This document shows positions 18,881-43,657 of a stretch of 44,172 nt of DNA, piece after piece. The stretch lies in contig CALVEK010000017.1 in the NCBI GenBank assembly GCA_944326555.1, positions 1 through 44,172 of the forward strand, written 5' to 3'. Source of the stretch: Candidatus Gastranaerophilales bacterium. Lineage in GTDB: Bacteria > Cyanobacteriota > Vampirovibrionia > Gastranaerophilales > Gastranaerophilaceae. The notes beneath the pieces are model-generated. The model saw only the letters and a list, made by a program, of their open reading frames with translations. It was not told the DNA's origin and searched no databases. Position 1 is the first letter of the stretch. Every line of letters starts with the position of its first letter. A program made the position numbers and the translations under genes.

Positions 18881-18905
18881 GACCCTTAATAGGGTCTTTT
18901 TTTTT
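18881..18905 (+). terminator. Rho-independent terminator
   Basis: GACCCT/AGGGTC stem with a TAAT loop followed by nine or more T. It ends the glyA-WecA unit, just before the convergent his gene. Confidence 0.85.
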
Positions 18906-20130
18906 ATTCTGTTTTGCAAGAAAGACTATTTAATATATCTTGCGGACTAACATTTTTTTCTACCATATATGTCAGTATGTGATATATAAGATTTGCTGCC
19001 TCATTTGAAAAGTCATTGTTGTTTTCTTGATACAACATTTTAAATGCATGTTCCATTATTTTTTGTTTTAGCAAGAATTTATCTTGAAATAGTTTTGTTG
19101 TGTATGAGTTGTCAGGCATGAGTTTATTTCTCTCCTGAAAGAGCCTGTATAGTTCATCTATTGTAAACTCTTTGTCGCCAAAACATGAGTATCTGCCAAG
19201 ATGACAGGAGTTTCCTTTTTGCTTTACTAAAAATAAAACAGCGTCAAGACTGCAGTTGAATCTCGCAGTAACAAGCTCTTGGATATTGCCTGATGTTTCG
19301 CCTTTTATCCATATTTTTTTCTTTGAACGGCTGAAATATATCCCTTTTCCCTCTTTTAGAGCCTGTTTTAAAGATTCGGGTGTGGAATACGCAAGACTTA
19401 GGACTTGTTTTGTATCGTAGTCTTGGACTATTGTCGGTATGTAGCCGCAACGTTTTTCAAAATCAATACATTTGCAAAATGCTTCCTCAAGTTCTACTTG
19501 CCCCTTATAAATACAAGTGCCAAGAAGGGAAGAAATATTCATACCCTGTAGTGTTATTATTTCTTGCAGGCTATGTATTCCTCCTGCCGCAATAAGTTCT
19601 TTTGTGGTTGCATTTCTTATTTCTTTTAGTTGCTCTATATCTGTGCCTTTTAGCGTTCCCTCTCTATCTACTAAAGAATAGATAAAACCAAGGCAATACG
19701 GAGTTAGTCTTTTTATTATATCAATAGGTGTACTATCAACAAATCTTGATCTTCCTAGTGATAAAACTTTTCCGTCTTTTACATCTATTGCTATATATAT
19801 TCTGTTTTTAGGGAGTTTGTTTATGAATGTATCATCTGCAGCAGGGGAAATAATCAATTTTTTTGCACCATAAGCTAATAATCTTTGTGCTTTTTCAATA
19901 TCTCTTATGCCGCCGCCAACGATGCAATTAGTAATTTTACATATTTCTTTTATTATTGATTCGTTGTTTCCTGTACCTTTTGCTGCATCAATATCTGTTA
20001 TGACAATCTCACCAAATCTACCATAATATTTTGCAAGTTCTATTACGTTATCTCTCTCAATAATCTGTTCTTCGCCTTGCAGGAGCCTTACTGCTTTACC
20101 GTTCATTAAATCTATGCTCGGTAGTATCAT
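18904..20130 (-). CDS. HisA-HisI-HisE three-domain histidine biosynthesis fusion
   Basis: A 408-aa protein with three domains. Residues 1-225 are HisA-like (ProFAR isomerase): D7 in MILPSIDL, VGGGIRD, D116 in IAIDVKDG. Residues 228-317 are HisI-like (PRA-CH): GYIPTIVQDYDT, YFSRSKKKIWIKGETSGN, with zinc cysteines C293, C309 and C316. Residues 320-408 are HisE-like (PRA-PH): FTIDELY, then EAANLIYH. These are steps 2-4 of the pathway. Several key acids are changed: the HisI motif DCDxD reads NCSLD (292-296), the HisE motif EExxE reads EHAFK (360-364) and ExxD reads EAAN, and HisA has S152 and E157 for the usual Thr and Asp. yqeK lies 12 bases upstream. Confidence 0.85.
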   Translation of the reverse strand: MILPSIDLMNGKAVRLLQGEEQIIERDNVIELAKYYGRFGEIVITDIDAAKGTGNNESIIKEICKITNCIVGGGIRDIEKAQRLLAYGAKKLIISPAADDTFINKLPKNRIYIAIDVKDGKVLSLGRSRFVDSTPIDIIKRLTPYCLGFIYSLVDREGTLKGTDIEQLKEIRNATTKELIAAGGIHSLQEIITLQGMNISSLLGTCIYKGQVELEEAFCKCIDFEKRCGYIPTIVQDYDTKQVLSLAYSTPESLKQALKEGKGIYFSRSKKKIWIKGETSGNIQELVTARFNCSLDAVLFLVKQKGNSCHLGRYSCFGDKEFTIDELYRLFQERNKLMPDNSYTTKLFQDKFLLKQKIMEHAFKMLYQENNNDFSNEAANLIYHILTYMVEKNVSPQDILNSLSCKTE

Positions 20131-20142
20131 TCTTTATCCTTT

Positions 20143-20763
20143 TTATTCAGTAACAATATCCAATAATTCGTTATATACATCTATTGTTATATGACAAATA
20201 GCAAGTCTTCTGTCAACAAGACTCTTTATTGTTGCTTCAAAGCATTTGAATAATGCTTTATCCAGACCTTTTTCTTCCTTTAATACGTCGAGACACTGCT
20301 GTCTAAACTCAGCATCTCTTGTTCTTGCTTCGATTTTGTCAGCGAGAAATATTATTTTTTCAAAGTCTGTCATTTGACATCTGCCAAGTGTATGCCATCT
20401 TATTGCATCAAGTATTTCTTTATCGTTTATGCCAAACTTTTCTTTTGCAAGATATGCACTAACCGGTGCATGAAGAGTTTTGTAGTTTAACAGCTCACAA
20501 TCTTGAACATCCGGTATGTTGCTATGTATAATTTCAAGCAACTTTTCGTTTGAAAAACATTTTGCGGCATCATGCAAAAGTCCTGTTATTCTGGCTTTTT
20601 CTACATCAAGATTAAACATTTCTGCCAGTTCAACGGCTGCTTCCATAACACCGAGTGAATGTATGTATCTTTCTTCGTACAGGTTTTCTTTTAACCAGTT
20701 TTGTATTTCTGCAATCTTATTATCTGTATAAGTCATGTTTATCAATGTATTTTGCAACTCCAT
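20143..20763 (-). CDS. yqeK: YqeK-type HD-domain hydrolase
   Basis: A 206-aa HD-superfamily protein of the YqeK family, members of which hydrolyse diadenosine tetraphosphate and are commonly encoded beside nadD, as here. Metal ligands visible: H in RYIHSLGV, HD in LLHDAAK, H in TLHAPVSAYLA, then AIRWHTLG and LADKIEARTRD. It overlaps the 3' end of nadD by 44 bases from the ATG used; an in-frame ATG at 20736 would give 17 bases of overlap. The first nine residues are not typical, so the later start is possible. The usual third partner, rsfS, is absent. Confidence 0.88.
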   Translation of the reverse strand: MELQNTLINMTYTDNKIAEIQNWLKENLYEERYIHSLGVMEAAVELAEMFNLDVEKARITGLLHDAAKCFSNEKLLEIIHSNIPDVQDCELLNYKTLHAPVSAYLAKEKFGINDKEILDAIRWHTLGRCQMTDFEKIIFLADKIEARTRDAEFRQQCLDVLKEEKGLDKALFKCFEATIKSLVDRRLAICHITIDVYNELLDIVTE

Positions 20764-21319
20764 CTGGTACCATTGCTTTTATCGGTACACTATTATGTAT
20801 ATTTTTTCGTATTTGTGTAGAAGATATATCAATAAAAGGCATCTTCATCATTTTGTAATTATAGCCTTTTTGTTTGAGCTTTTGCAAATATGTTTCATCT
20901 TGTTTTAGTTGTTGTTCATCTTCTCTAACAAAAAGTACAAAATCAACGAGGTTTTTGAGTTTTTCTGTTTGATACCAGCTTTCAATGTTTTTAAAAGCAT
21001 CTGTACCTATTATAAAGTTAATCATTCCCTCTACAGGGTATTTTTCGTATATTTCTTCAACTGTTGGAACTGTGTAAGAAAGACCATCTCGATTGTATTC
21101 GATGTCGCTAACTTCTATATAGTCAGCTTCTTTCGCCGCTATTTCTGCCATATTTAGCCTGTGCAAAGAAAAATTCTCATCAAATTCTTTGTGAGGAGGT
21201 CTTGCTGCTGGGATTAGAATTATCTTGTCGAAATCATAATTCTTTTTTGCATATTCGCAAATCTTTAGGTGTGCATTGTGTATGGGGTTAAAGGTTCCTT
21301 GAAACAAGCATAATTTCAT
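20720..21319 (-). CDS. nadD: Nicotinate-nucleotide adenylyltransferase
   Basis: A 199-aa nucleotidyltransferase forming nicotinic acid adenine dinucleotide from NaMN and ATP. It has the adenylyltransferase GTFNPIHNAHL near the N-terminus, LIPAARPPHK, FIIGTDAFKNIESWY, and the C-terminal ISSTQIRK. Length is standard. It lies eight bases downstream of the Udk-like kinase gene and overlaps yqeK, so kinase-nadD-yqeK-his fusion reads as one operon. Confidence 0.94.
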   Translation of the reverse strand: MKLCLFQGTFNPIHNAHLKICEYAKKNYDFDKIILIPAARPPHKEFDENFSLHRLNMAEIAAKEADYIEVSDIEYNRDGLSYTVPTVEEIYEKYPVEGMINFIIGTDAFKNIESWYQTEKLKNLVDFVLFVREDEQQLKQDETYLQKLKQKGYNYKMMKMPFIDISSTQIRKNIHNSVPIKAMVPDGVAKYIDKHDLYR

Positions 21320-21327
21320 TTCTTCAT

Positions 21328-22236
21328 TTACCTTGGAAGTTTTATTCCTTTATTGCTGTTTTGTGAAGAATGTATTTCTTGTACAAGACAGAGAATTTGG
21401 TTAATAAATTTTTTGTATGCACTGCGGTCGGCTTCTCCTGACAGAATTATGTCGGCTTTTGCAGCTGTCGGATGTATATGAATTTTTGCTTTTGATGAAG
21501 CATTATTGTATACCTCATCGGCAGAATCTCCAAGACCTCTTTCTTCTGCACGTCTGTAAAATCTTTCTTTTTGAACTTGATGAGATACATCTACATATAT
21601 TTTGAAATCAAATGCATCAACAACTTTTTCTGTTAGAGTAAACAGACCTTCTGAAATAATGATTTTTGATGGTTCTGCTTTTGTTACATTATCTTTTCTT
21701 ATTGCTGTTCCAGACATATCATATTTGGGAAGATATACTGTATCTCCAAACAATAGCTGTTTTATGTGTTTTTTCATTAATTCTAATTCAAGAGCTTCCG
21801 GTACATCCAAATCGTAATTTTTGGCAAATTCAGCAAAACTTCCTGCTTTTTTAACCATATCGGAACGATCATAATAATAGTCATCTGTGTTGAGTCTTGT
21901 TATTACATTATCAATGCAATATTCATCGGCAAATGACTGTATTGTATTGATTATGTCATAAGCAATTGTGGATTTTCCGCTTGCCGTTTCTCCTGCAATA
22001 CCTATAGAACAAGCTCTTGTTATATGTCCTGATATAAACAAAGCCATCTTACGGATGGCATTATTGCTAACTTTTTTGAATATAGAATTTTTAGAATTGA
22101 TTTCATCAAAGAAAATTTTGTTAAGTCTTTGTTCTACCAATTGAAGAAGAACAGAGTTTCCGCTTTTAACAGAAATGGGGTTTGATTGTTTATTGCTTTT
22201 GGCTGATATGAATTCTCTTGTTATTGTATTTTGCAA
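21328..22236 (-). CDS. Uridine kinase/phosphoribulokinase-like P-loop kinase
   Basis: A 302-aa protein with a Udk-like kinase domain from about residue 75. Walker A is GIAGETASGKST; then RLNTDDYYYDRSD (substrate Asp), LPKYDMSGTAIRK, IIISEGLFTL (Walker B-like), and a lid with RFYRRAEERGLG. Substrate is probably a nucleoside or ribose-like compound; uridine is the default for the family but is not proven. The first 70 residues are a low-similarity extension, longer than in typical Udk (about 210 aa). It heads the minus-strand group kinase-nadD-yqeK-his and is separated from panD by a terminator. Confidence 0.75.
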   Translation of the reverse strand: MQNTITREFISAKSNKQSNPISVKSGNSVLLQLVEQRLNKIFFDEINSKNSIFKKVSNNAIRKMALFISGHITRACSIGIAGETASGKSTIAYDIINTIQSFADEYCIDNVITRLNTDDYYYDRSDMVKKAGSFAEFAKNYDLDVPEALELELMKKHIKQLLFGDTVYLPKYDMSGTAIRKDNVTKAEPSKIIISEGLFTLTEKVVDAFDFKIYVDVSHQVQKERFYRRAEERGLGDSADEVYNNASSKAKIHIHPTAAKADIILSGEADRSAYKKFINQILCLVQEIHSSQNSNKGIKLPR

Positions 22237-42454: not shown

Positions 42455-43657
42455 ATGTTTGTAAAAAATCTAAAATACAATTTGCCTGACAAAGATGGCT
42501 TTTTTGGAGAATTTGGAGGGGCTTTTGTTCCTGACGATTTTAAAAAAGTTTTAGCAAGACTCAATGATGAGTTTGAAAGAGCAATTAATGATGAAAAATT
42601 TCTAGATGAAGTCTACTCATTGTTAAAAGATTATTCAGGACGTCCGACTCCTTTGTATTTTGCAAGGAATTTAACTAAGTATTACGGTAAAGGAAAAATT
42701 TACTTAAAGAGAGAAGACCTGAATCATACCGGTGCTCACAAAATTAATAATGTAATCGGACAGGCATTGCTTGCCAAAAGAATGGGGGCAAAAAAAGTTA
42801 TAGCTGAAACTGGGGCAGGTCAACATGGAGTTGCCTCTGCGACAGCAGCGACACTTCTAGGGCTTGAGTGTGATGTTTTTATGGGTGAAAAAGATATAAT
42901 TCGTCAGCATCTTAATGTTGAAAGAATGAAACTTCTCGGTGCAAAAGTCCATTCCGTTGATACAGGAACAAAAACACTTTCTGATGCTTGTGATGCTGCG
43001 ATAGATTATTGGATAAGACACAGCGATGAAGTTTTTTATATTCTAGGTTCTGCTGTCGGTCCTCACCCTTATCCCAAAATTGTGAGATTTTTCCAATCTG
43101 TGATAGGTAATGAAATTAAACATCAATGTCTTGAAAAAGAAGGCAGACTTCCTAGTTATGTGTTAGCTTGTATAGGTGGGGGAAGTAATGCAATAGGCGC
43201 TTTCCACGCCTTTATGGACAACCCTGAAGTGCAACTTATCGGGCTTGAGGCAGCTGGTGAGGGTGTAGATACAGAAAAAACTGCAGCAAGTTTGGCTAAG
43301 GGCAAAAAGATGATTTTGCACGGTAAACGACAGTATGTGCTTTGTGATAAAAATGGAAATGTTGGTGAGTCTTATTCAATTTCTGCTGGGCTTGATTACC
43401 CAGGGTGTGGGCCTGAACATTGTTATTTACACGACACTGGGCTTGCAAAATATGAACCGATTACAGATGACGAAGCGGTGCAAGCCTTTGCCAGACTTTC
43501 TCGTTTGGAAGGTATTATTCCTGCAATAGAATCGGCGCATGCTGTAGCTTATTTAGAAAAATTAATGCCGTCTACGAATGCTGATGATATTGTTGTAGTG
43601 AATTTATCAGGACGTGGTGATAAAGATACTGAAAGGTTGTTGCAACTGCTTGTTTGA
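42455..43657 (+). CDS. trpB: Tryptophan synthase beta subunit
   Basis: A 400-aa PLP enzyme joining indole and serine. Visible: [42 protein letters not shown] with Schiff-base K96, [44 protein letters not shown] (phosphate loop), and [12 protein letters not shown]. This is the TrpB1 form that partners TrpA. AGGAG precedes the ATG. trpA and the rest of the pathway are not in the window. Confidence 0.97.

Follow-up and report, generated by a model that had tools for sequence, protein, structure and literature searches.

A fused HisA-HisI-HisE protein left behind in histidine-auxotrophic Gastranaerophilales: a degenerate, probably exapted former enzyme under selection

The hisAIE gene and its operon

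The window analyzed here is a stretch of 44,172 nucleotides from the genome of a Candidatus Gastranaerophilales bacterium (G000), a MAG of 45 contigs with 99.56% completeness. Gastranaerophilales are non-photosynthetic gut relatives of Cyanobacteria. Throughout, genomes with the hisAIE fusion but without the remaining his pathway are termed orphans, and full-pathway relatives are termed his+. The features of the locus are as follows.

18904..20130, minus strand: hisAIE fusion gene, 408 amino acids, histidine-pathway orphan (ORF, Pfam, and genome profile searches)
19477..20130, minus strand: HisA-like TIM barrel, residues 1-218 (profile, alignment, and fold match to PriA/HisA structures)
19165..19476, minus strand: HisI-like domain, residues 219-322, the most conserved domain of hisAIE (profile, alignment)
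18907..19164, minus strand: HisE-like domain, residues 323-408, the fastest evolving domain here, dN/dS 0.22 (profile)
20137..20142, minus strand: intact Shine-Dalgarno-like AAGGA just 5' of the hisAIE ATG (sequence read directly)
20143..22236, minus strand: yqeK (HD), nadD, and udk, located upstream in this conserved operon and serving as controls

The initial annotation of this DNA, made from its letters, had placed three histidine enzymes in one chain, and this was borne out: 18904-20130 is a single open frame of 408 codons, in which Pfam identified HisA (residues 1-212), HisI (246-317), and HisE (325-403) in this order. The window protein matched the profiles of HisA (PF00977, 144 bits, 7e-42), HisI (PF01502, 92 bits versus a cut-off of 27, 2e-26), and HisE (PF01503, 40 bits versus a cut-off of 21, 6e-10; TIGR03188, 53 bits versus a cut-off of 42.7). 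All three folds were predicted (AlphaFold, mean pLDDT 86), and the predicted structure matched those of HisA/PriA (3zs4 for the HisA part, TMt 0.79), Shigella HisIE, and plant HISN2. It closes an operon with the order udk-nadD-yqeK-hisAIE, a unit that recurs elsewhere in the genus. Thirteen further genomes of the genus carry orthologues of the same frame and synteny, and the frame or assembly error considered earlier therefore does not apply.

Distribution of the fusion

In an alignment-based scan, the nearest named relatives of the window protein were Candidatus Gastranaerophilales MAGs. The protein was matched in 121 of 383 Gastranaerophilales genomes; nearly all matches were in one frame and full-length, the latter in well over 100 genomes. 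Thus, HisA-HisI-HisE is the standard form of the three genes across Gastranaerophilales, and the arrangement with HisA in front, initially taken as unusual, is not so in its own order. The fusion was also found in a genome from another order of the class (G058).

A survey of his gene fusions lists five, including hisIE, hisNB, hisHF/HIS7, and hisIED/HIS4 (PMC1963479). HisA-HisI-HisE is not among them, although it likewise joins consecutive or near-consecutive steps of the pathway. No earlier description of it was found in the literature searched. With the HisIE structures from Shigella (6J2L) and plants (HISN2, 7BGM), the window protein shares the HisI-HisE order, the positions of the zinc-binding Cys and His residues, and the fold; it differs by the HisA fused in front and by the replacement of two HisI Asp metal ligands and three HisE acids. 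The fusions of his+ Gastranaerophilales are orthologous to it (63-65% identity, same synteny in the genus) but come with a full pathway and every catalytic motif.

Two contigs assigned to Candidatus Woesearchaeota (DPANN archaea; DAOVBM010000012.1 and JAGVYS010000005.1) also encode HisA-HisI-HisE fusions with 54-56% identity, situated inside his operons and adjoining archaeal-looking regulators, which suggests transfer of a his operon between Melainabacteria-like bacteria and Woesearchaeota. Three family members (G179, G329, and G323) carry no fusion but separate HisA matches of low identity near HisB, in two of them accompanied by HisIE matches; this suggests that the his operon was regained by transfer.

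Loss of the remaining histidine pathway

It had been proposed that a second, intact HisIE might exist elsewhere in the genome. A search of the 99.56% complete assembly of G000 revealed no second HisI, which refutes this proposal, and neither HisF, HisB, HisD, nor HisG. A combined HisG+HisD+HisF+HisB query found none of these in ten orphan genomes and detected them in his+ controls. All genomes compared are MAGs and were read in stretches only. Within the window's genus, eleven members (some of them incomplete MAGs) combine the fusion with further his genes, nine lack both, and three (G000, G014, and G004) have the fusion alone. With the combined query, the orphan state was also found in seven species of another genus of the family, g39. 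The orphans are scattered on the gene tree, where well-supported branches force at least four changes; the orphan state hence arose independently at least four times in Gastranaerophilales.

In his+ species of g39 the gene order is csaB-hisAIE-hisD-acyltransferase, whereas in the orphans (a clade of five and one of two species) it is csaB-hisAIE-acyltransferase, with hisD excised from between. In G152, a 15-residue relic of hisD directly follows the hisAIE stop codon. Because of this excision within conserved synteny and the relic, the orphan state reflects gene loss rather than an assembly gap, and an artefact of missing contigs was rejected. Gut Melainabacteria have been reported to lack histidine synthesis (PMC3787301), and nothing else bearing directly on histidine synthesis was found in the literature on Melainabacteria auxotrophy.

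In G270, a short HisG-like frame of 226 amino acids (1392-2072 of the locus in reverse complement) lies two genes upstream of a hisAIE that looks intact; this genome lacks HisD, HisF, and HisB and may represent pathway loss at an early stage. In G281, which retains HisG and HisF but no HisB, the frames of hisAIE and hisD are both interrupted, reflecting either ongoing decay or assembly errors. Four g40 genomes (G173, G254, G306, and G318) contain hisAIE and a second HisA/HisF-like match; unlike other g40 members, they gave no match to the HisB/IGPD profile.

Catalytic residues replaced in the window protein

Residue losses were counted against 42 relatives outside the ten orphans, in which 102 positions are invariant (56 in HisA, 28 in HisI, and 18 in HisE). 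The window protein is altered at 20 of these (10, 3, and 7, respectively), and no comparable acceleration was seen in the neighboring genes; the losses therefore exceed chance. The altered motifs of HisI and HisE, with roles assigned from the plant HISN2 structure (PMC8102479), are:

19243..19257, minus strand: NCSLD replacing DCDxD (D292N, D294S) in HisI (alignment; roles PMC8102479)
19039..19053, minus strand: EHAFK replacing EExxE (E361H, E364K) in HisE (alignment)
18991..19002, minus strand: EAAN replacing ExxD (D380N) in HisE (alignment)

The initial annotation had described acids lost in every domain, and alignment with other fusions upheld this for HisI and HisE. In HisI, D292, C293, D294, and D296 are invariant in the 42 relatives, and with D292N and D294S only one of the three Asp metal ligands is left; the zinc ligands Cys293, Cys309, Cys316, and His310 are all retained, as had been noted for the cysteines. 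In HisE, E360, E361, E364, E377, and D380 are likewise invariant, and E361H, E364K, and D380N remove magnesium ligands (PMC8102479). Since residues with known roles are replaced, loss of activity is very probable for HisE and for the Asp metal site of HisI in the window protein.

For HisA the claim failed, as both residues aligned with the catalytic acids of this enzyme, Asp7 and Asp116, are retained. Two HisA substitutions had been singled out. The Ser (T152S) is indeed particular to this gene, along with R70I, G95S, T96P, W127R, and others, so that Thr152, Trp127, and residues of the phosphate site, all invariant in the relatives, have changed here. The Glu at position 157 is present in every his+ relative aligned; it was rejected as a lost acid and is a trait of the lineage.

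Purifying selection on hisAIE

When hisAIE was analyzed by itself with a branch-wise codon model, synonymous sites were saturated and branch lengths reached the bound. Selection was therefore estimated with a joint codon model, in which hisAIE shares branch times with yqeK+nadD+udk, and additionally in a recent clade whose branches are shorter. On the window's branch, the joint model yielded a dN/dS of 0.096 for hisAIE, compared with 0.028 for the three neighbors and 0.026 for hisAIE in his+ relatives, a relaxation of approximately 3.5-fold; dS is high on long branches, making absolute dN/dS values model-dependent, while contrasts with neighbor genes and his+ branches should depend less on the codon model. 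A dN/dS of 1 was rejected on the branches of the window (2dlnL = 44), G014 (83), and G004 (188). By domain, the window's branch gave 0.059 for HisI, 0.077 for HisA, and 0.224 for HisE, and on each of the three orphan branches of the genus, constraint was strongest in HisI. In the five-species orphan clade of g39, dN/dS of hisAIE was 0.008 versus 0.017 in his+ species, and it was similar in all three domains.

In a simulation based on the missense excess, approximately 10 stop codons were expected in the window's hisAIE; none was observed. A more stringent estimate, restricted to changes at otherwise invariant positions (implying approximately 89 neutral missense changes), predicted 6.5 stops versus zero observed (P = 0.0016); P was about 0.002 for G004 and 5e-10 for G014, whose hisAIE contains five indels, all in frame. 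A pseudogene would show a broken frame or neutral evolution; the open frame, the dN/dS of 0.096, and the nonsense deficit show neither, and as far as these data go, hisAIE of the window is not a dead pseudogene.

These results bear on ordinary decay, in which the pathway was lost recently and a functionless hisAIE is drifting toward a pseudogene without being broken yet. The disappearance of HisG, HisD, HisF, and HisB would then come with just such an erosion of invariant positions (20 of 102) and the 3.5-fold rise in dN/dS on a long branch, a relaxation that is also expected of a gene being lost; moreover, nine members of the genus are already without hisAIE, so the gene is dispensable there. 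Decay accounts poorly, however, for the missing stops in all three orphans of the genus, for dN/dS values far below 1, and for an orphan clade in g39 as constrained as working enzymes. We consider it a serious but unlikely explanation.

Different losses in different orphan lineages

The orphans did not lose the same residues. In G014, 43 of the 56 invariant HisA positions are altered and HisI is good; in G004, acids of HisE are lost, as is the Trp of HisI that stacks on adenine. D292N occurs in all three orphans of the window's genus with at least two independent origins on the species tree, a recurrence that may be due to chance given the few events. The five-species clade of g39 (G118, G123, G133, G206, and G217) shows altered HisI substrate residues (W274R, S280H) and one altered HisE acid (D380E), and the two-species clade (G152 and G355) has lost every HisI zinc ligand without a change at any invariant position of HisA or HisE. 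Among all g39 orphans, 0-1 of the 56 invariant HisA positions are altered. As no domain is preserved throughout all orphan lineages, no single retained activity explains them all. In g39, where HisA and most of HisE are kept and HisI is altered, activity of HisA or HisE on other substrates is possible.

Tryptophan synthesis and other explanations for retention

One such activity was considered specifically, namely that the HisA domain became, or always also was, the missing TrpF and is kept for tryptophan synthesis, as PriA in Actinomycetota. The window contains a canonical trpB:

42455..43657, plus strand: trpB (tryptophan synthase beta), solitary (TIGR00263, 593 bits versus a cut-off of 392)

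No trpF was found in 26 of the 27 genomes tested, orphan or not: the gene (PF00697) was absent from all family members tested, his+ or not, and from G058, and present in G046 of another family. The nearly unaltered HisA of the g39 orphans would fit this role, for which PriA/SubTrpF of Actinomycetaceae, a HisA-family enzyme with a second substrate in tryptophan synthesis, is the precedent (PMC5404923). Yet trpA, C, D, E, and G were all missing from the 41% of the G000 genome sampled, in which trpB was the only trp gene, and approximately 48% of G133 gave only weak, paralogue-like trp matches (a cut-off PALP frame, a TrpG-like amidotransferase, and others). Furthermore, the wrecked HisA of the orphan G014 could not perform the reaction, and the window's HisA is without W127 and the G95-T96 pair. 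A TrpF role is thus improbable. Like hisAIE, PriA/SubTrpF is a HisA-family enzyme kept after pathway loss in host-associated bacteria under relaxed selection (PMC5404923); in contrast, hisAIE is a three-domain fusion in which two domains have lost catalytic residues, and PriA has a known second substrate in tryptophan synthesis, whereas a second pathway for hisAIE would be hypothetical.

The trpB gene of the window has no adjoining trpA, and the genome has no trpF; the solitary gene possibly serves indole salvage. G046, from the sister family, contains a complete trpEGDCFBA operon.

It is highly improbable that the frame is preserved solely because its breakage would do harm, be it polarity on other genes or a toxic truncated or misfolded product: hisAIE does lie inside an operon before the acyltransferase gene in g39, but it is the last gene of the operon in the window's genus, and amino acid conservation at a dN/dS of 0.008 goes beyond what polarity explains. 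A histidine enzyme that still works after a shift of its metal sites, as the initial annotation had offered, the other his genes being merely unassembled or replaced by unrelated enzymes, is barely credible even for a MAG in 45 contigs and a protein with one intact-looking zinc site, given that four unlinked genes are jointly absent at 99.6% completeness and likewise in sister genomes, and that the canonical motifs are retained in full-pathway relatives and lost only in orphans, different ones in different lineages.

Discussion

In the genome of the window, the histidine pathway is lost, hisAIE is left as an orphan, and its frame and sequence are under selection. The protein does not make histidine, because HisG and the later enzymes are missing; as selection persists without the pathway, it acts on the protein outside histidine synthesis, and we infer a new function there. 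In our assessment, hisAIE is probably the last remnant of histidine biosynthesis in an auxotroph, a degenerate former enzyme that was exapted and is maintained by selection. The earlier suggestion that the domains are becoming structural or losing catalysis came nearest to the evidence, but missed the cause, the disappearance of the pathway.

The histidine pathway of the ancestor was complete and included the HisA-HisI-HisE fusion. Loss of HisG, HisB, HisF, and HisD then left the fusion without a histidine substrate, and its active sites would have eroded afterward. Most of the sequence, along with the open frame, is still held by purifying selection, and the folded protein would already have had, or would have gained, a task unrelated to histidine for which the scaffold was needed but not every one of the catalytic sites. 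The domain that carries this task seems to depend on the lineage, with HisI best kept in the window's genus and HisA and HisE in g39. More tentatively, the HisA-HisI-HisE pseudoenzyme may have been recruited repeatedly to non-histidine functions, with different domains selected in each lineage and HisI perhaps the retained part in the window's genus. The retained HisI there, zinc-binding and devoid of its Asp metal site, may act, for example, in nucleotide binding or as a zinc hydrolase with a changed substrate.

The absence of histidine synthesis from gut Melainabacteria (PMC3787301) and the persistence of a HisA-family enzyme beyond the loss of its pathway, as for PriA (PMC5404923), were already known. 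For an orphan HisA-HisI-HisE under selection, no earlier description was found by a search that covered little of the subscription literature.

The loss of a pathway is usually followed by the loss of its genes. Here, hisAIE was left behind in at least four lineages and stripped of catalytic residues in different ways, yet it remained under selection. This repeated orphaning amounts to an experiment replicated by nature, from which it can be learned how metabolic enzymes turn into pseudoenzymes or acquire new roles. Annotating orphan hisAIE as HisA, HisI, and HisE would credit these auxotrophs with steps of histidine biosynthesis that they do not perform.
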